From contig NZ_OBEA01000002.1 in NCBI RefSeq assembly GCF_900215355.1, forward strand, positions 496,001 through 560,000: a stretch of 64,000 bases of DNA. The letters run 5' to 3'. The notes under the pieces are model-generated. The model was not told where the DNA came from and searched no databases. It saw only the letters and a list, made by a program, of their open reading frames with translations. Made by a program: the position numbers and the translations under genes. The DNA comes from Pseudooceanicola antarcticus. GTDB taxonomy: Bacteria; Pseudomonadota; Alphaproteobacteria; Rhodobacterales; Rhodobacteraceae. The first letter of the stretch is position 1; every line of letters begins with the position of its first letter. Positions 24,940-37,376 of the stretch are shown here, piece after piece.

Positions 24940-27900
24940 TTAGTTTCCTTCGATGGTCAGCGCTTCGTCGACAAGCGACTCTTGCTGGGCTTTGTGCTGT
25001 TTGGCCAGGCCGGTTGCGGGCGAGGCAGAGGCGACGCGGCCCACGTAACGCGGGCGTTCATGGGTGGCGCCGATACGCTGCAGGCACCACTCGACGTTGG
25101 GTTCGATGAAGGACCAGGCGCCCTGGTTCTTCGGCTCTTCCTGGCACCAGAGCATCTCTGCCCCCTTGAAGCGCTCGAGCTCCTTGACCAGCGAGATCGC
25201 CGGGAAGGGATAGAACTGCTCGATCCGCATCAGGTAGACATCGTCGATGCCGCGGGCGTCACGCTCTTCCAGCAGGTCGTAGTAGACCTTGCCCGAGCAC
25301 ATGACGACGCGCTTGATCTTGTCGTCCGCCACCAGCTTGGTGTCCGAATTGCCCATCTCGGCATCGTCCCACAGGACGCGGTGGAAGCTGGAGCCGGTGG
25401 TGAATTCGCTGGCCTTGCTGACCGCCAGCTTGTGGCGCAGCAGGGACTTCGGCGTCATCATCACCAGCGGCTTGCGGAAGCTGCGGTGCAGCTGGCGGCG
25501 CAGGATGTGGAAGTAGTTGGCAGGCGTCGTGCAGTTGGCAACGATCCAGTTGTCCTGGCCGCACATCTGCAGGAAGCGCTCGAGGCGTGCCGAGGAGTGC
25601 TCGGGGCCCTGGCCCTCGTAGCCGTGCGGCAGCAGCATGACGAGGCCCGACATCCGCAGCCACTTGGATTCACCCGAGCTGATGAACTGGTCGAACATGA
25701 TCTGCGCGCCGTTGGCGAAGTCGCCGAACTGGGCTTCCCACATCACCAGGGCATTCGGTTCGGCCAGCGAGTAGCCGTACTCGAAGCCCAGCACCGCGTA
25801 TTCCGACAGCATCGAGTCGATGACCTCGTAGCGGGCCTGGCCGGGCTTGATGTTGTTCAGCGGGTAGTAGCGCTCTTCGGTCTCCTGGTTGATCAGGGCC
25901 GAATGGCGCTGCGAGAAGGTGCCGCGGGTGGAATCCTGGCCCGCCAGGCGCACCGGGTAGCCCTCGGCCAGCAGCGAGCCGAAGGCCAGGGCCTCGCCCG
26001 TCGCCCAGTCGAAGCCTTCGCCGGTCTCGAACATCTTGGACTTGGCGTCCAGCAGGCGGCCGACGGTCTTGTGCATCGGGAAGCCATCGGGGGCGCTGGT
26101 CAGCGACTTGCCGACCTCTGCCATCAGCTCTTCGCTGATCGCGGTCTCGCCGCGCTGGTAGTCTTCCTTTTCGCGCTCGAGACCCGACCACTTGCCGTCC
26201 AGCCAGTCGGCCTTGTTGGGCTTGTATTCCTTGCCGGCCTCGAACTCTTCGTTGAGGTGGGCCTGGAAGGCGGCCTTCATGTCCTCGATCTCGCCCTCGG
26301 GGATGAGACCGTCCTTGACCAGGCGATCAGTGTACAGGCTCAGGGTCGTGCGGTGACCCTTGATGTTCTTGTACATGATCGGGTTGGTGAACATCGGCTC
26401 GTCGCCTTCGTTGTGACCGAAGCGACGGTAGCAGAAGATGTCGATCACCACGTCCTTGTGGAACTTCTGGCGGAACTCGGTGGCCACCTTGGCGGCATGC
26501 ACCACGGCCTCGGGGTCGTCGCCGTTGACGTGGAAGATCGGCGCCTCGACCATCAGCGCGATATCCGTCGGATAGGGGCTGGAGCGCGAGAAATGCGGCG
26601 CGGTGGTGAAGCCGATCTGGTTGTTGACGACGATATGGATGGTGCCGCCGGTGCGGTGGCCCACCAGGCCCGAGAGGCCAAAGCACTCGGCCACGACGCC
26701 CTGGCCCGCGAAGGCCGCGTCACCGTGCAGCAGCACGGGAATGACCGAGGTGCGGTCGGCGTCGTTGTTCTGGAACTGCTTGGCGCGGGCCTTGCCCAGC
26801 ACCACCGGGTTCACGGCTTCCAGGTGCGAGGGGTTGGCGGTCAGCGACAGGTGCACGGTGTTGCCGTCGAACTCGCGGTCCGAGGAGGCACCGAGGTGGT
26901 ACTTCACATCGCCCGAGCCATCGACGTCCTCGGGCTTGAAGCTGCCGCCCTGGAATTCGTTGAAGATGGCGCGGTAGGGCTTGCCCATCACGTTGGCCAG
27001 CACCGAGAGGCGGCCGCGGTGCGGCATGCCGATGACCACGTCGCGGGCGCCCAGGTTGCCGCCGCGCTTGATGATCTGCTCCATCGCGGGGATCAGCGCT
27101 TCGCCACCGTCGAGGCCGAAACGCTTGGTGCCCATGTACTTGACGTGCAGGAACTTCTCGAAGCCCTCGGCCTCGACCAGCTTGTTCAGGATGGCGCGGC
27201 GGCCCTCACGGGTGAAGGTGATCTCCTTGCCGTAGCCCTCGATGCGCTCCTTCAGCCAGGCGCTTTCCTCGGGGTTCGAGATATGCATGTACTGCAGCGC
27301 GAAGGTGCCGCAGTAGGTGCGGCGCACGATGTCCACGATCTGGCGCATCGAGGCGATCTGCAGGCCCAGCACGTTGTCGATGAAGATCGGGCGATCCATG
27401 TCGGCATCGGTGAAGCCATAGGACTTCGGATCGAGCTCGGGATGGGCGACCGGGTCCTTCATGCCCAGCGGATCGAGATCGGCGGCCAGGTGGCCACGGA
27501 TCCGGTAGGCGCGGATCAGCATGATGGCGCGGATCGAATCCAGCACCGCGCGCTTGATCGCCTCGTCCGAGACCTCGACGCCCTTGGCGGCGGCCTTGTC
27601 CTTGATCTTCTTGCCCGCGTCCTTGGCCTCGGCCGGGGCCGGCCACATGCCGTCCAGCGCTGCCGTCAGCTCGTCGTTCGGGGCCGGCGGCCAGTCGGCG
27701 CGCTTCCACGAGGGGCCAGCGGCCTCTGCCTTGGCGTCGCTCTCGCTGTCGCCCAGGCTGCCGAAGAACTCGGCCCAGGCGTCATCGACCGCAGAGGGGT
27801 CATTGGCCCAGCGGGCATAGAGCTGCTCGAGATAGGCAGCATTGTGCCCCTGCATGAAGCTGGAGGCGTGGAAAAGGTCGTTCGGGCTCTGATCGTTCAT
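24940..27900 (-). CDS. sucA: 2-oxoglutarate dehydrogenase E1
   Basis: This 986-residue thiamine diphosphate enzyme decarboxylates 2-oxoglutarate and passes the succinyl group to SucB. It has an N-terminal E2-binding segment, the core with [14 protein letters not shown], the [19 protein letters not shown] region, the ThDP/Mg site GDDPEAV..NINGDD-like [11 protein letters not shown], and a C-terminal transketolase-like half. Length and order match the family. A DUF805 gene lies between it and sucD. A 103-nt gap ahead (27901-28003) shows no clear promoter. Confidence 0.97.
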
Positions 27901-29540: not shown

Positions 29541-30734
29541 TTAGCCCTTCACTGCTTTCACGATTTTCTCGGCGCCGTCGGACAGGTTGTCTGCCGCGAT
29601 GACGTTCAGGCCGGAGGAGGCGATGATCTCCTTGCCCTTTTCGACGTTGGTGCCTTCCAGGCGCACGACCAGCGGAACCTCGAGGCCCACTTCCTTCACC
29701 GCGGCGATCACGCCCTCGGCGATGACGTCGCAGCGCATGATGCCGCCGAAGATGTTCACCAGGATGCCCTTAACGTTGGGGTCGGAGGTGATGATCTTGA
29801 AGGCCTCGGTCACTTTCTCCTTGGTGGCGCCGCCACCGACGTCGAGGAAGTTCGCGGGCTCGGCACCGTAGAGCTTGATGATGTCCATCGTTGCCATGGC
29901 CAGGCCTGCGCCGTTCACCATGCAGCCGATCTCACCATCCAGCGCGATGTAGTTCAGGTCGTACTTGGAGGCCGCCAGTTCTTTGGCGTCTTCCTCGGTC
30001 TCGTCGCGCAGGGCGGCGATGTCCGCGTGGCGGTAGACCGCGTTGCCGTCGAAGCCGACCTTGGCGTCCAGGACCTTCAGGTTGCCATCGGGCATGACGA
30101 TCAGCGGGTTGATCTCCAGCTGTTCCATGTCCTTCTCCATGAAGGCACGGTAGAGATCGCCGATCAGCTTGACGCACTGCTTCATCGCGGCGCCCTTCAG
30201 GCCCAGCGAGAAGGCGACCTTGCGGCCGTGGAACGGCGCGTAGCCGGTGGCCGGGTCGATGGAGAAGCTGAGGATCTTCTCGGGGGTGGCAGCTGCCACT
30301 TCCTCGATGTCCATGCCGCCCTCGGTGGAGCAGACCACGGAGACCGAAGAGGTCTGACGGTCGACCAGCAGAGCCAGGTACAGCTCGCGTTCGATGTCGG
30401 AACCGGCTTCGATGTAGATGCGGTTGACCTGCTTGCCGGCGGGGCCGGTCTGGTGGGTCACCAGGGTCTTGCCAAGCATCTTCTTGGCTTCTTCTTCGGC
30501 TTCCTCGACGGATTTCGCCAGGCGGACACCGCCTTTTTCACCGGCGCTTTCCTCGACGAACTTGCCCTTGCCGCGGCCGCCTGCGTGGATCTGAGCCTTG
30601 ACCACCCAGAGCGGGCCGTCCAGCTCGCCCGCGGCGGTCTTGGCCTCATCGGCCTTCAGGACCGCGCGGCCGTCCGAGACCGGCGCGCCATATTCGCGAA
30701 GGATCGCCTTCGCCTGATATTCATGGATGTTCAT
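29541..30734 (-). CDS. sucC: Succinyl-CoA synthetase beta subunit
   Basis: This 397-residue ATP-grasp subunit starts [12 protein letters not shown], the usual SucC start. The ATG at 30734 is preceded by GAGGG at 9 nt; a TTG three codons earlier is less likely. ATP-grasp and nucleotide-binding segments include [16 protein letters not shown], and the C-terminal [14 protein letters not shown] binds SucD. It is the first gene of the suc operon. Paired palindromes lie about 110 nt upstream. Confidence 0.97.
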
Positions 30735-30844: not shown

Positions 30845-30873
30845 GTGATCACGCGCGGAATTCGTGTGATCAC
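30845..30873 (-). promoter_or_regulatory. Candidate operator upstream of sucC: two GTGATCAC palindromes
   Basis: GTGATCAC occurs at 30845-30852 and again at 30866-30873, start-to-start 21 bp, about two helical turns. The outer flanks are TTT and AAA, so the whole block is itself nearly palindromic. The same arrangement is found upstream of sdhC. It lies 111 bp or more upstream of the sucC ATG, in the 298-nt gap between sucC and a plus-strand glycosyltransferase (30735-31032). The regulator is not identified. Confidence 0.7.
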
Positions 30874-31032
30874 AAAGCTGCGCCGCCTGCATTTCCAGCT
30901 CCCTTTCGGCCTCGTCCGGGATTCGGTCTGCCACCATCTTGTAATGAACTGCCCCGAAATCTAAGACCTTTTGAAACCCGAATGGCGCCCCTGTTCCGCA
31001 GGGGCAGGCAAGAGCTGACGTCGAGACCCCGC

Positions 31033-31866
31033 ATGCATGTCATAAGCCTGTCTTCGATCCCGCCGCGCTTCGGCGCGCTAGCGGAACAGCTGCAGGCCCT
31101 GCTTGCGCAGCGGCGGCCAGCCGAGGAGATCCGGCTCTATATCCCCAGGCGCTACCGCCGCTTTCCCGACTGGGACGGGCGGCTGCCCGAGGTACCGCGG
31201 GGCATCCGCATCTGCCGCGCGGAAGAGGACCTGGGCCCGGCGACAAAGGTGCTCTTCGCCGCTGAGGAGTTGCGGGGGCAGGACCTGGGGCTGCTCTATT
31301 GCGACGACGACAGGACCTATGCGCCGGAATGGAGCCACCGCTTGCTGCGCGCCTGGCGCCGCCGCCCGCAGGCGACGATCGCCAGCTGCGGCTGGGACCT
31401 GGACCACCTGGGCCTGCCGCTGCCCGAGGCGGACCCGCAGCCGCGGTTCGGCTTGCAGGTGCGGCGCATGGATCCCGAATACCGCTACCTGCGGACCCGG
31501 CAGCGGATCGGGCGGCTCTTCGGCAGGGCGAAGGGGCCGAAACCGCAGCGCAACCTGATCGGCCGCTCGGGCCATTGCCACGTGGCCGAGGGCTTTGGCG
31601 GTGTGCTGATCCGTCCCGACTGGCTGCCGCAAGAGGCCTGGCAGATTCCGCCGGTGCTCTGGGCCGTCGATGATGTCTGGCTTTCGGGGCATCTGACCCG
31701 CACGGGCCATGCCCCCTGGCTGCCGGCGCGGGCGCACCGGCTGCGCACGGGCGGGGTCTCGGACGTGGCGGCGCTGGCGGATGCAACGCTCGATGGCGCG
31801 GGCAGGGCCGAGGCCAACCTGCGCTGCGCCAGGCACTTCATCGAGACCTACGGCATCTGGAAATGA
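31033..31866 (+). CDS. Putative GT-A glycosyltransferase-like protein
   Basis: This 277-residue protein starts MHVISLSSIPPRF at ATG 31033; earlier in-frame starts add an unrelated leader. The pattern resembles small GT-A glycosyltransferases: a nucleotide-binding-like start, LLYCDDDRTYAPEW as a likely DXD metal site near residue 96, and a GGVLIRPDWL segment. Specific family assignment is not possible by eye. It lies alone on the plus strand between mdh and sucC, breaking up the TCA block. Confidence 0.65.
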   Translation: MHVISLSSIPPRFGALAEQLQALLAQRRPAEEIRLYIPRRYRRFPDWDGRLPEVPRGIRICRAEEDLGPATKVLFAAEELRGQDLGLLYCDDDRTYAPEWSHRLLRAWRRRPQATIASCGWDLDHLGLPLPEADPQPRFGLQVRRMDPEYRYLRTRQRIGRLFGRAKGPKPQRNLIGRSGHCHVAEGFGGVLIRPDWLPQEAWQIPPVLWAVDDVWLSGHLTRTGHAPWLPARAHRLRTGGVSDVAALADATLDGAGRAEANLRCARHFIETYGIWK

Positions 31867-31868
31867 AA

Positions 31869-31894
31869 AGGGCCGCCCCGAGGGCGGCCCTTTC
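31869..31894. terminator. Bidirectional terminator between glycosyltransferase gene and mdh
   Basis: AGGGCCGCC and GGCGGCCCT form a stem around a short loop, with AAAA on the left and TTT on the right. It lies between convergent stops (31866 and 31915), so it can serve both genes. Confidence 0.82.
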
Positions 31895-31914
31895 CGTCAG
31901 AACTGTGCTGTGGC

Positions 31915-33232
<1,318 letters not shown>

Positions 33233-33640
33233 TCAGGCGTCCTGGTCGTCGCCCGGCAGGGCCTCGAACAGCGACTCGAAGGCCTGCCCGCTGGCGATCA
33301 GGCAGGTGATCCCCTGCGGCGAGGTCATGGTGATGGTCCAGGTGCCGCTGTCATCCGAGGCGAAGACCTCGACCATGGCGTTGTTGGAGCCGATGCCGAT
33401 CGAGCGGCGCGTCTCGCCGTAGCCTTCGGCAAGGCGGTTCACCACCACCTCGCGCGGGGCACAGGCCTGGCGGCTGCCCTGGGCGCTGGCCGAGAGCGGC
33501 AGCAGTGCCGACATCACGGACAGCAGCAAGGCGATAGCGGCGGATGGGGCAGAGCATGGGGCCAATCTCGGGCCCGGCATCCGGGCAGGAGCGGAGCGGA
33601 CGGCCTGGCGCAGCAGGCGGCTGGTGTCGGACAATTTCAT
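33233..33640 (-). CDS. Conserved secreted hypothetical protein
   Basis: This 135-residue protein has a Sec signal whose hydrophobic core (AIALLLSVMSALLPLSASA) ends near residue 53, leaving a mature domain of about 80 residues. The mature part begins around CAPREVVVNRLAEGYGE and has a second cysteine in GITCLIASGQ, so a disulfide is likely in the periplasm. The ATG at 33640 has AAAGGGA 8 nt ahead; an internal ATG about 20 codons on would give a more normal signal length. I do not recognise a named family. Confidence 0.7.
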   Translation of the reverse strand: MKLSDTSRLLRQAVRSAPARMPGPRLAPCSAPSAAIALLLSVMSALLPLSASAQGSRQACAPREVVVNRLAEGYGETRRSIGIGSNNAMVEVFASDDSGTWTITMTSPQGITCLIASGQAFESLFEALPGDDQDA

Positions 33641-33945
33641 CCGAAATCCCTTTCTGGCTGGGTCCGGCCCGGAGGAAGGGCAGGATGGACCGTTGCGATC
33701 TGGGCGGTCTCTGCGCCCGGCTCGACAATCCCCGATGCCTGCGCGGACCTGTCCCGGCCCTGCGCCCCCTCACCATGAGCGACAACCTCCTGCCTTTCGG
33801 TTAACATCCCGGTCCAGGCCCGTGCCTTTCCCCGATTTCGCCGCGTCGCAGCAGAAAATTCGGGCCGGGAGCTGAATTCCCCTTGAATTAATCCGTTGAA
33901 AAATGCCATCCCTGCGCAAGAATATTACTCGCTTGAGGTTTCGCC
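33641..33945. other. Divergent promoter region before mcl2
   Basis: These 305 nt separate the secreted hypothetical gene from mcl2 and hold both promoters. GCTGAATTCCCCTTGAA at 33871-33887 is one of three similar sequences in the window and ends 58 nt before the mcl2 ATG. I see no gene here. Confidence 0.5.
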
Positions 33946-34794
33946 ATGACATCGACCACGCGCCCCTTCCGCTCGCTGCTCTATATTCCGGGCTCCAAGG
34001 AGCGTGCGCTCGACAAGGCGCGCGCGCTGCCGGTGGATGCCATCCTCTTCGACCTGGAAGACGCCGTGATGCCCGAGGCCAAGGTCGAGGCACGCGCCAC
34101 GCTGCTCGCCGCCCTCGGCGAAGGCGGCTACGGCAAGCGGGCGAAGATCGTGCGGATCAACGCGCTAGATACCGAATGGGGCGAAGGCGATGTGGCGGCG
34201 CTGAAGGGGGCCGATATCGACGCGATCCTGCTGCCCAAGGTCAATTCCGCCAAGGACATCGACCGGCTGGCGGCGCTTTGCGACGTGCCGATCTGGGCCA
34301 TGATGGAGACCCCGCTGGCCATCTTCAACGCGCTCGAGATCGCGGCGCACCCCCGGATCGAAGGTTTCGTGGCGGGCACCAATGACCTGGCCAAGGAGCT
34401 CAACTGCCGCACCCGCCCGGACCGGCTGCCGATGCAGATGGCGCTGCAGACCATGCTGATGGCGGCCCGTGCCCATGGGGTGGTGGCGACCGATGGCGTC
34501 TACAACCAGTTCAAGGACGAGGCCGGGCTTGAGGCCGAATGCGAGCAGGGCCGGGACCTGGGCTTTGACGGCAAGACCCTGATCCACCCGGCCCAGGTCG
34601 AGATCGCCAACCGCGTCTTCGCCCCCTCCGAGGCCGAGATCGACCTGGCCCGCCGCCAGATCGAGGCCTTCGAGGCGGTGCTGGCCTCGGGGCAGGGGGT
34701 TGCCGTGGTCGATGGCAAGATCGTCGAGAACCTGCACGTGGAAACCGCGAAAAAGACCCTGGCCCAGGCCGAAGCCATTGCGGAGGCCGGTTGA
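33946..34794 (+). CDS. mcl2: (3S)-malyl-CoA thioesterase (HpcH/HpaI fold)
   Basis: This 282-residue TIM-barrel protein of the citrate lyase beta family has PFRSLLYIPGSKERAL, the metal-binding FDLEDAV segment, WAMMETPLAIFNA with the metal-binding glutamate and FDGKTLIHPAQV. From memory it closely resembles Rhodobacter sphaeroides Mcl2, shown to hydrolyse (3S)-malyl-CoA to malate; Mcl1, the lyase, has a different N-terminus. mch, next step neighbour of the ethylmalonyl-CoA pathway, lies two genes downstream, which supports the call. A lyase of the same fold acting on another CoA ester is the alternative. Confidence 0.85.
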   Translation: MTSTTRPFRSLLYIPGSKERALDKARALPVDAILFDLEDAVMPEAKVEARATLLAALGEGGYGKRAKIVRINALDTEWGEGDVAALKGADIDAILLPKVNSAKDIDRLAALCDVPIWAMMETPLAIFNALEIAAHPRIEGFVAGTNDLAKELNCRTRPDRLPMQMALQTMLMAARAHGVVATDGVYNQFKDEAGLEAECEQGRDLGFDGKTLIHPAQVEIANRVFAPSEAEIDLARRQIEAFEAVLASGQGVAVVDGKIVENLHVETAKKTLAQAEAIAEAG

Positions 34795-34837
34795 GAGGCC
34801 CAGTCTGGCGGCGATTCACTTAGGCAAAGGCACCCCC

Positions 34838-35389
34838 ATGGCACTTATCCTGCTCGGCCTCATCCTCTGGACCTGGCCCCACCTGATGAAGGAATACACC
34901 CCCGGCCTGCGCGGGGGGCTCGGAGAGAGCACCGCCAAGCCGATCGTCGCGGTCGCGGCGCTGCTGGCCATCGTGCTGATGGTGCTGGGCTATCGCTCGG
35001 CCGACTATATCCACATCTACACGCCGCCCGCCTGGGGCCAGCATCTGAACAACCTGCTGATGCTCTTCTCTGTGGCGCTCTTCGGCGGTGCCCATTCCAA
35101 GGGGCGCATCAAGCAGGTCGTCCGTCACCCGATGTTCGCGGGCACCATCCTCTGGGCGGTGGCGCACCTGCTGGTGCGCGGCGATGCGGCCTCGGTGCTG
35201 CTCTGGGGCGGGATGATCGTCTGGGCCGTCGCCGGCTGGGTGGTGACCAACCGTCGCCAGCCCGGATATGTCCGACCCACGGGCGGGACGCTGAAGGGGG
35301 ATCTGATCCTCGCGGCGATCACCATTGTGGTCTACATCGTCATCGTGCTGATCCACTCGCTGGTCGGCCCCAATCCACTTCCGATGTGA
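34838..35389 (+). CDS. NnrU-family membrane protein
   Basis: This 183-residue protein has about six membrane segments and the NnrU pattern: LWTWPHLMKEYTPGLR at the start, HPMFAGTILWAVAHLL in the middle and RRQPGYV near the end. NnrU was first linked to nitric oxide/denitrification genes; related membrane methyltransferase-like folds share the HPxxxGxxLW motif. There are no denitrification genes here. ATG 34838 follows AAAGG. It sits between mcl2 and mch. Confidence 0.82.
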   Translation: MALILLGLILWTWPHLMKEYTPGLRGGLGESTAKPIVAVAALLAIVLMVLGYRSADYIHIYTPPAWGQHLNNLLMLFSVALFGGAHSKGRIKQVVRHPMFAGTILWAVAHLLVRGDAASVLLWGGMIVWAVAGWVVTNRRQPGYVRPTGGTLKGDLILAAITIVVYIVIVLIHSLVGPNPLPM

Positions 35390-35396
35390 GGACCCG

Positions 35397-35600
35397 ATGA
35401 AACTCTACCGTTTGCTGACCGAAGACGACACCTCGGCCTTCTGCCACAAGGTGACCAAGGCGCTGAATGCCGGCTGGGAGCTGCATGGCTCGCCCACCTA
35501 CGCCTTCGATGCCGCCAATGGCACCATGCGCTGCGGCCAGGCCGTGGTGAAGGAGGTCGAGGGCACCTACACCCCCGACACCAAGCTTGGAGAGCACTGA
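35397..35600 (+). CDS. DUF1737 small protein
   Basis: This 67-residue protein matches the DUF1737 pattern: MKLYRLLTEDDTSAFCHKVT, then GWELHGSPTYAFD and QAVVKEV. It is small and probably a folded cytoplasmic domain of unknown function. It is directly followed by mch, with adjacent stop and start, and so is probably in the mcl2-mch operon. Confidence 0.82.
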   Translation: MKLYRLLTEDDTSAFCHKVTKALNAGWELHGSPTYAFDAANGTMRCGQAVVKEVEGTYTPDTKLGEH

Positions 35601-36629
35601 ATGAAGACCAATCCGGGCCGTTTCTTCGAGGACTACAAGCTGGGAGAGGTGATCTCCCATGCCGTGCCGCGGACCGTTTCGGGCGGGGAGCGGGCGCTGT
35701 ACCATGCGCTCTATCCCGCGCGGGGTGCGCTCTATTCCTCGGATGAATTCGCCCGGAGCTGCGGTCTTCCGCAAGCGCCGCTGGATGATCTGGCGGCCTT
35801 CCACCTGGTCTTCGGCAAGACGGTGCCCGATATCTCGCTGAACGCCGTGGCCAACCTGGGCTATGCCGAGGGCCGCTGGCTGGCGCCGGTCTATCCCGGA
35901 GACACGCTTGCGGCGCGGTCCACGGTGATCGGGCTGAAGCAGAATTCCAACGGCAAGTCCGGCGTGGTCTGGGTGAAGACCGAGGGGGTGAACCAGCGCG
36001 GCGAAGTGGTGCTGAGCTATGTCCGCTGGGTCATGGTGCGCAAGCGTGACCTCGATGCCGAGGCGCCGATGACCACCATCCCCGACCTGGCCCCCGCCGT
36101 TCCGGCCTCTGACCTCGTGGTGCCCGAGGGGCTCGACTTCACCGGCTATGATTTCACCCTGGCGGGCGAGCCGCATCGCTGGGGCGACTACGAGCCGGGC
36201 GAGCGGATCGACCATGTGGATGGCGTCACCGTGGAAGAGGCCGAGCACATGCTGGCCACGCGTCTCTGGCAGAACACCGCCAAGGTGCATTTCGACGCCA
36301 CCTTCCGGCCCGACGGGCAGCGGCTGATCTATGGCGGCCACGTGATCTCGATGGCGCGGGCGCTGTCCTTCAACGGGCTGGCCAATGCGCAGATGGTGGT
36401 GGCGCTGAACGGTGGCGCCCATGCCAACCCCTGTTTCTCGGGCACCACGGTGAAGGCCTGGAGCGAGGTCCTGGACCGGGCCGAGACCGCGGCCCCCGGT
36501 GTCGGTGCGCTGCGGCTGCGGCTGGTGGCGACCTCGGGCGGAGAGCCCTTCACCCTGAAGGGCGAGGGCGGCAAGTATCTGCCGCATGTGCTTCTGGATC
36601 TGGACTACTGGGTGCTGGTGCCGCGCTAG
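35601..36629 (+). CDS. mch: Mesaconyl-CoA hydratase
   Basis: This 342-residue protein is a double hot-dog MaoC-type hydratase. It adds water to mesaconyl-C1-CoA to give beta-methylmalyl-CoA in the ethylmalonyl-CoA pathway. The first hot-dog contains the active region RTVSGGERALYHALYPARGALYSSD; the second, with ERIDHVDGVTVEEAEHMLATRLWQNTAKVHFD, is typical of Mch. It directly follows the DUF1737 gene and precedes the sdh promoter region. Confidence 0.92.
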   Translation: MKTNPGRFFEDYKLGEVISHAVPRTVSGGERALYHALYPARGALYSSDEFARSCGLPQAPLDDLAAFHLVFGKTVPDISLNAVANLGYAEGRWLAPVYPGDTLAARSTVIGLKQNSNGKSGVVWVKTEGVNQRGEVVLSYVRWVMVRKRDLDAEAPMTTIPDLAPAVPASDLVVPEGLDFTGYDFTLAGEPHRWGDYEPGERIDHVDGVTVEEAEHMLATRLWQNTAKVHFDATFRPDGQRLIYGGHVISMARALSFNGLANAQMVVALNGGAHANPCFSGTTVKAWSEVLDRAETAAPGVGALRLRLVATSGGEPFTLKGEGGKYLPHVLLDLDYWVLVPR

Positions 36630-36836
36630 GGGCCGGTCCGAAGGCGCAGGCCCGAGCGCCCCGCACCCCGTTCCGGGGCGGCGGAAAGGGGCACGCGCCG
36701 GGTGGCAGATCCTTCTGCGTCAAGCGGTTGCAAGCGATCCCGGCCGTGCCGCCAGGCGCGTCCCTTCGGGCGCGAGGGGCGCAGAATCAAGGCGAAAAAC
36801 CAAGCAAATCAGTCGGATTTTGTATCCGCGCAAAAC

Positions 36837-36865
36837 GTGATCACAGCGCGAAAATCCGTGATCAC
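36837..36865 (+). promoter_or_regulatory. Candidate operator upstream of sdhC: two GTGATCAC palindromes
   Basis: GTGATCAC occurs at 36837-36844 and 36858-36865, start-to-start 21 bp, the same spacing as upstream of sucC. It ends 121 nt before the sdhC ATG. It lies in a 357-nt gap (36630-36986) that is locally AT-rich around 36790-36900 and otherwise holds a weak GC hairpin near 36659 after mch. The shared architecture suggests one regulator for both TCA operons. Confidence 0.7.
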
Positions 36866-36986
36866 ATTGGTCAAAAGATATCATTGGTTTTGTCAAATTC
36901 TTGGGGGTGCGACCCCGGAGAAGGATGACAAGCCCCCCTGATCTGGTAGAAGCTGGGTCCAAGGGAAATCCGGAAAGGACATGCCG

Positions 36987-37376
36987 ATGGCCGATGTGAA
37001 CCGGGGCAACCGCCCGCTCTCTCCATTCATGCTGGGCAAGCACTACAGGTTCCAGCTGAACTCTGTCACCTCGATCCTGACGCGGATCACCGGCAACGCG
37101 ATGATCGTCGCCGCCATCCTCGTCGCCTGGTGGCTGCTGGCGGCCTCCTCCGGCCCCGACTACTTCGCCACGGCGGATTACGTCCTGACCTCCTTCATCG
37201 GTGACGTCGTGATGACGCTCTCGGCCCTGGGCCTGTGGTATCACACCCTGGCCGGTGTCCGTCACCTGCTCTGGGACAACGGCTACTGCCTGGACGTTGC
37301 CACCTCCGACAAGCTCGGCTGGGGTATCCTGGGCGGCTCTGTCGTCCTGACCCTGCTGACCATCATCATCGTCTGA
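36987..37376 (+). CDS. sdhC: Succinate dehydrogenase cytochrome b556 subunit
   Basis: This 129-residue membrane anchor subunit has three helices (about 30-50, 60-82 and 105-127). It has SVTSILTRITG at the quinone site and the heme-ligand region WYHTLAGVRHLLWD. I chose ATG 36987 (MADVNRGNRPLSP), 7 nt after AAAGGA; an ATG two codons earlier is too close to it. It is the first gene of the sdh operon. Confidence 0.93.
   Translation: MADVNRGNRPLSPFMLGKHYRFQLNSVTSILTRITGNAMIVAAILVAWWLLAASSGPDYFATADYVLTSFIGDVVMTLSALGLWYHTLAGVRHLLWDNGYCLDVATSDKLGWGILGGSVVLTLLTIIIV

Follow-up and report, generated by a model that had tools for sequence, protein, structure and literature searches.

What regulator acts on the two pairs of palindromic octamers that precede the sucC and sdhC genes of Pseudooceanicola antarcticus? 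In this work, we analyzed a 64-kb window, i.e., the whole stretch of DNA under study (RefSeq assembly GCF_900215355.1, contig NZ_OBEA01000002.1, positions 496,001 to 560,000 of the forward strand), in which these pairs lie upstream of two operons of the tricarboxylic acid (TCA) cycle, suc and sdh (Table 1). A first-pass annotation of the window had attributed both pairs to a dedicated dimeric-pair regulator that it could not name. We found that the idea of a shared paired operator stands, and that the regulator need not stay nameless, since AkgR, a GntR-family protein, fits both the motif and the targets. Our reading, to which we assign a probability of about 0.86, is that both pairs are operators of an AkgR ortholog encoded elsewhere in the genome, and that tandem dimers of this protein activate sdh and suc.

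Paired octamers in the window and the assembly

Both pairs have the form GTGATCAC-N13-GTGATCAC with a 21-bp pitch and are located at 30845/30866 and 36837/36858, exactly where the first-pass annotation had placed them. The suc pair is separated by 110 bp from the start codon of sucC (30734, minus strand), and the sdh pair by 115 or 121 bp from the two candidate starts of sdhC (36981 and 36987). In total, eight GTGATCAC octamers were found within the window (expectation 0.87; none of 100 shuffles reached eight). The remaining four are single and lie within open reading frames (ORFs), as had been stated at first; because they read in frame as GTG-ATC-ACC (Val-Ile-Thr), they look like coding coincidences. 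Outside the window some octamers are intergenic, and single TGTGATCACA sites precede a GntR gene and a fumC-like gene of the same genome.

The entire assembly (4,232,532 bases) has 206 copies of the single octamer (all copies were counted, with positions for only about the first 50), so a lone octamer carries little meaning. The exact pair occurs twice in the assembly, both times inside the window. One explanation for these pairs would be chance or coding repetition, with GTGATCAC being common since Val-Ile-Thr codons spell it; the 206 copies, the four in-frame copies of the window, and two of the 92 family pairs described below, which lie inside a folC-like ORF (named by eye), are in line with this. 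However, random placement of 206 octamers gave a mean of 0.007 pitch-21 pairs (2000 runs, maximum 1) against the two found, both of which are intergenic and precede related operons. Chance is further refuted by the conservation of the pair in 380 of 390 relatives, and we give it next to no credence.

Conservation and geometry across the family

The first-pass annotation had reasoned that a genuine operator would be conserved upstream of orthologous operons and would not be equally frequent at random sites. Of 390 genomes sampled from the same order (source genome included, all labeled as the same family), 380 have the exact pair, usually twice per genome, as do 134 of 139 genera; when the pitch was left free between 8 and 38 bp, the number of genomes rose to 385. 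A class-wide draw had the exact pair in four of five family members vs. two of 380 genomes outside the family. This outside-family count was used as the control; the reversed pattern was not, since its CTAG may be rare for other reasons.

The surroundings of 94 pairs were inspected. These were the first listed rather than a random draw, and each triple array was counted as two pairs; the pairs of the three-pair genomes G032, G086, G155, G171, G175, and G252 and the two listed pairs of G025 were left out. Forty-nine of the pairs precede sucC (one of them 477 bp away), 40 precede sdhC, one precedes sucA, and four are beside none of these genes (two outside the family and the two in the folC-like coding region). 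Within the family, 90 of the 92 pairs inspected precede suc or sdh genes, and none occurs elsewhere in the source assembly. Both checks leave the proposal standing, and the pair appears to be a genuine, shared operator with two sites for a dedicated regulator. At 44 of 49 sucC loci, 103–120 bp separate the pair from the third codon of the gene; for sdhC the distance is 101–185 bp. The spacer sequence is variable, and in the flanks at sucC, TTT is favored ahead of the pair and AAA past it.

The pitch is nearly fixed. In 75 listed pairs (counted by eye), it is 21 bp in 59, 20 bp in nine, 22 bp in none, and another value in seven, namely, 18 bp (three times), 27, 19, 15, and 13 bp. A pitch of 20–21 bp provides what same-face binding of neighboring dimers requires. 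For ten genomes having one exact pair only, 20-kb stretches were read to find the partner operator: five have a 20-bp pair there and one has a 21-bp pair whose octamers each carry a single mismatch, while two (G008 and G142) have no octamer before sdhC and in two the partner lies off the stretch. Three octamers in a row with a 21-bp pitch precede sucC in two genomes of the same genus (G046, L163, and G253, L166); such a triple array is a natural extension of the pair.

AkgR as the candidate regulator

In Rhodobacter sphaeroides, AkgR is a GntR-family activator, and GTGATCAC is reported as a motif within the sites that it binds; the source is a text on another GntR regulator, which cites Imam et al. 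2015 for this statement (PMC6365646). In the same species, the GntR-family protein RSP_0981 is a predicted controller of RSP_0967-6 (succinyl-CoA synthetase), RSP_0974-6 (sdh), and RSP_0965-62 (2-oxoglutarate dehydrogenase), according to the regulon predictions of PMC4344238. Judged by tag numbers, RSP_0981 is close to sdh. We take AkgR to be RSP_0981, and the texts cited above fit this. The AkgR regulon of R. sphaeroides is reportedly the subject of Imam et al. 2015 (mBio e02461-14).

The source genome has 21 FCD-domain matches. One of these, a protein with GntR and FCD domains encoded outside the window, is our AkgR candidate, and TTTGTGATCACAAG sits just 5′ of its ATG. Among the other 20 FCD loci (domain plus 1.5 kb of either flank), the octamer was found inside the gene in one and far downstream in one, and was not found in the rest. 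The predicted structure of the candidate has a pLDDT of 89.5, and the nearest solved structure by profile and fold is McbR (4p9f). Its closest named species belong to Pseudooceanicola (P. spongiae, 92%), and a metagenome bin reaches 97%; no record named R. sphaeroides was found among the best 80 of 571 matches. We infer that the candidate is orthologous to RSP_0981.

Co-occurrence of regulator and operator was assessed in 67 genomes that were deliberately enriched for those without the exact pair, with an identity of 64% or more defining an ortholog. An ortholog of the AkgR candidate was found in 62 of them. Both ortholog and pair (pitch 8–38 bp) are present in 61 genomes, neither in four, the ortholog only in one, and pairs only in one. 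The four genomes with no clear ortholog and no pair (G110, G141, G227, and G232) have no octamer in the 220 bp before sucC, even with one mismatch allowed; two of them, G110 and G227 (one genus), have a GntR protein that is 46–47% identical to the candidate. Furthermore, pair positions were listed for 46 relatives, and in 28 of these (counted by hand) the ortholog shares a contig with a pair and is less than 25 kb away from it, which agrees with the closeness of RSP_0981 to RSP_0974-6 by tag number.

A different GntR/FCD paralog, or some regulator not yet known, could instead act at the pairs, with AkgR merely sharing the motif. There are 21 FCD-domain matches to choose from, the same GTGATCAC has been proposed for a Pseudomonas GntR regulator with 32% identity to AkgR (from the same text, PMC6365646), and outside the family, in the genome G535, a pair stands directly before the gene of a distant FCD regulator (27% identity to AkgR). 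Set against this, within the stretches read, an octamer upstream of the gene is found at only one of the 21 FCD loci, that of the AkgR candidate, and the presence of the ortholog tracks that of the pair, with linkage in 28 of 46 genomes. We consider another regulator quite improbable.

The G535 locus (another family of the class; L107, 960–1020) has a 21-bp GTGATCAC pair with a one-mismatch copy approximately 20 bp further up. This pair lies between a TonB-receptor-like ORF (named by eye) and the FCD GntR gene, i.e., the same site logic with a distant regulator.

The site at akgR and the predicted sdhC promoter

Two sets of akgR loci were read; the second comprises the 80 best of 571 confirmed matches, and some species may occur in both sets. 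An octamer lies near the start of the gene at 25 of the 30 loci in the first set and at 76 of the 80 in the second. TTGAC is found exactly 18 bp before the octamer at 68 of the 76 loci, and in the first set the ATG follows 9–10 bases past the octamer in 17 of 25 (counted by eye). With TTGAC as the −35 box, the octamer would overlie the last part of the spacer together with some of the −10 region, and the transcription start would fall near the ATG. This position over the −10 region suggests autorepression, which AkgR would probably exert from the single site, as well as an akgR message that would be leaderless. In one relative (G147; L081), the akgR promoter has two octamers, 13 bp apart, instead of one.

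At sdhC, a box like (G/A)TGAC(A/T) begins 57–60 bp past the pair in most loci. At 34 of 40 loci, TGAC occupies offsets 58–61 past the pair; the best 4-bp window of shuffled sequence (500 sets) averaged 2.9 TGAC (maximum 6). Given a −10 box 16 bp further on, the two sdh octamers would be centered near −97 and −118.

The hexamer CGCTAA/TTAGCG, which was picked post hoc after inspection of the leaders, is present in 17 of 39 sdhC leaders of the relatives vs. 2.2 in shuffles, often 14–25 bp past the pair. It is possibly the half-site of a second regulator, and is absent from the sdhC leader of the P. antarcticus genome.

Proposed mechanism

We propose that one AkgR dimer would occupy each palindrome. 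At a pitch of 21 bp (a minority of relatives have 20 bp), two dimers would face the same side of the helix at a distance of two turns, and this spacing may allow them to bind cooperatively. From approximately 97 and 118 bp upstream of the predicted sdhC start, AkgR would assist RNA polymerase. Joint activation of sdh and suc would coordinate the production of the enzymes that lead from 2-oxoglutarate to fumarate. A single dimer over the akgR promoter, bound to the octamer that follows the presumed −35 box and precedes the start codon, would probably limit AkgR itself. AkgR may also have a ligand. In this scheme, the sites, their geometry, conservation, and co-occurrence with the regulator come from the present analysis, and the motif and the activator role come from the papers on R. 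sphaeroides.

The pairs may also be read as repressor operators, such that AkgR holds sdh and suc down until released by a ligand, i.e., the same identity with the opposite sign. FCD regulators are often repressors, and the octamer at akgR coincides in part with the presumed core promoter. However, the sdhC pair usually ends approximately 58 bp before the −35-like box, which is too distant for simple occlusion, and AkgR is termed an activator where its motif is given (PMC6365646). We regard repression of sdh and suc as unlikely.

Several observations weigh against our reading of the pairs as activating AkgR operators. A paralog with 39% identity (L028) could share the sites. In G008 and G142 (genus g9) the suc pair is kept, yet the 260 bp before sdhC have no octamer, even with one mismatch. 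Two pairs occur in G023, where AkgR has no match. An ortholog (79%) is present in G231, but with just a one-mismatch pair at sucC, and the 260 bp before its akgR have no octamer; more generally, the octamer is missing at five of 30 and four of 80 akgR loci. The akgR of the source genome is on a different contig from the operators, and among 80 named relatives, sdhC, sucC, and sucA are all absent beside akgR (up to 10 kb on each side) in 79, the other one having sucA. Finally, a simple −35/−10 search of sucC found no consensus core promoter, with scores at the level of shuffled sequences.

With these points considered, activation of sdh and suc by an AkgR ortholog is the reading that we retain. 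A broader proposal is more tentative: a family-wide and hitherto undescribed two-dimer enhancer, in which helically phased tandem (sometimes three) AkgR sites at a near-fixed distance activate sdh and suc, and a single site over the −10 region represses a probably leaderless akgR. We put this at somewhat below even odds.

Other regulators and targets considered

Sites of the CRP/FNR type have the spacing TGTGA-N6-TCACA or TTGAT-N4-ATCAA, and were rejected because the half-sites of GTGATCAC have no spacer. The CceR site, reported as [AGT]GTT-N6-8-AAC[ACT] in the motif description of PMC4344238, was also rejected for the octamer; it does not fit the motif, and none is found between the sdh pair and sdhC in the source genome. 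The CceR motif was found in four of 39 sdhC leaders (shuffles: mean 1.6, maximum 6) and two of 47 sucC leaders (shuffles: 2.3), with no clear enrichment. According to the regulon comparison in PMC11323563, the CceR regulon of R. sphaeroides includes sdh, 2-oxoglutarate dehydrogenase, and fumarase, and that of Paracoccus denitrificans does not. CceR may act on the sdh and suc operons too, without explaining the octamer. We also put aside a denitrification regulator of the GntR family from Paracoccus, since no link to the octamer motif was seen in the consulted sections of its report (PMC6686037).

The longer form TGTGATCACR has eight distinct places in the assembly, namely, the four pair octamers, akgR, fumC, and two unexplained ones. 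The fumC-like gene (named by eye) of the source genome has TTTGTGATCACAAG 117 bp upstream (G000:C10:425988-425997; L105, 1501–1510). We rejected fumC as a family-wide member of the regulon: in 34 genomes searched, four of which gave no locus, the octamer is within 400 bp upstream in one of 30 loci, that of the source genome itself. Fumarase may be a lineage-specific addition to the AkgR regulon. Further TGTGATCACA sites, outside suc, sdh, akgR, and fumC, are at G000:C10:293586 (L104) and G000:C11:548726 (L106) and are unexplained; a ureE-like ORF (named by eye) is downstream of the latter.

Features of the locus

An ORF of 294 residues with no NCBIfam match lies at 30982-31866 of the window, where it separates mdh from sucC and is on the opposite strand. 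The mdh gene of several relatives is located shortly upstream of sucC and is co-directional with it.

Table 1. Proposed operators, genes, and predicted promoter elements discussed in the text. Positions are those of the window, except for the AkgR candidate (assembly G000).
Feature	Position	Strand	Basis or remark
suc pair, octamer GTGATCAC proximal to sucC	30845..30852	no strand	sequence search
suc pair, octamer GTGATCAC distal to sucC	30866..30873	no strand	21 bp from partner
sdh pair, upstream octamer GTGATCAC	36837..36844	no strand	sequence search
sdh pair, downstream octamer GTGATCAC	36858..36865	no strand	21 bp from partner
sucC, succinyl-CoA synthetase beta subunit	29541..30734	-	NCBIfam NF001913, 579 bits; ATG at 30734; first gene after suc pair
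sucA, 2-oxoglutarate dehydrogenase E1	24940..27900	-	NCBIfam NF006914, 1384.5 bits; downstream of and co-directional with sucC
sdhC, succinate dehydrogenase cytochrome b556 subunit	36981..37376 (start maybe 36987)	+	NCBIfam TIGR02970, 99.5 bits
Predicted sdhC -35 element, ATGACA	36925..36930	+	prediction from TGAC position across sdhC loci
Predicted sdhC -10 element, TAGAAG	36947..36952	+	prediction; 16-bp spacer to -35
AkgR candidate, GntR-family (FCD-type)	G000:C5:778393-779037	-	GntR and FCD domains; outside the window

Significance and comparison with known systems

These results assign two main TCA operons, in the source bacterium and in nearly all sampled members of its family, to a named regulator with exact predicted sites. 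The layout of two sites at suc and sdh vs. one at akgR provides a testable case of a GntR-family regulator that may activate or repress depending on how many sites there are and where they lie. If true, one protein and one octamer would produce opposite outcomes by the number and position of sites.

The regulator, its motif, and its targets are already known or predicted in R. sphaeroides. The near-invariant 21-bp tandem layout and the fixed geometry at akgR were not found in the literature searched, which did not cover the primary AkgR paper; the strict tandem geometry may be new. AkgR of R. sphaeroides shares with the system described here the motif GTGATCAC, a GntR-family regulator, and the suc, sdh, and 2-oxoglutarate dehydrogenase genes as targets, as far as the statements in PMC6365646 and PMC4344238 go. 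It differs in that akgR of the source genome sits on another contig, and those statements make no mention of a strict 21-bp pair or a single akgR site.

In Pseudomonas simiae, the GntR regulator PS417_07240 of a deoxyribonate cluster is 32% identical to AkgR and has the same octamer near its gene start, but there is one site per cluster, and this is a sugar-acid cluster rather than TCA operons, as described for that cluster in PMC6365646. McbR/YncC of Escherichia coli (4p9f) is the nearest solved structure to the AkgR candidate. However, the identity in the fold alignment is 25%, and the targets differ. NanR of E. coli (6wfq) is also an FCD regulator, with a weak fold match, and offers a model for how AkgR dimers may be arranged. 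NanR binds several adjacent repeats of a different motif and represses sialic acid genes.

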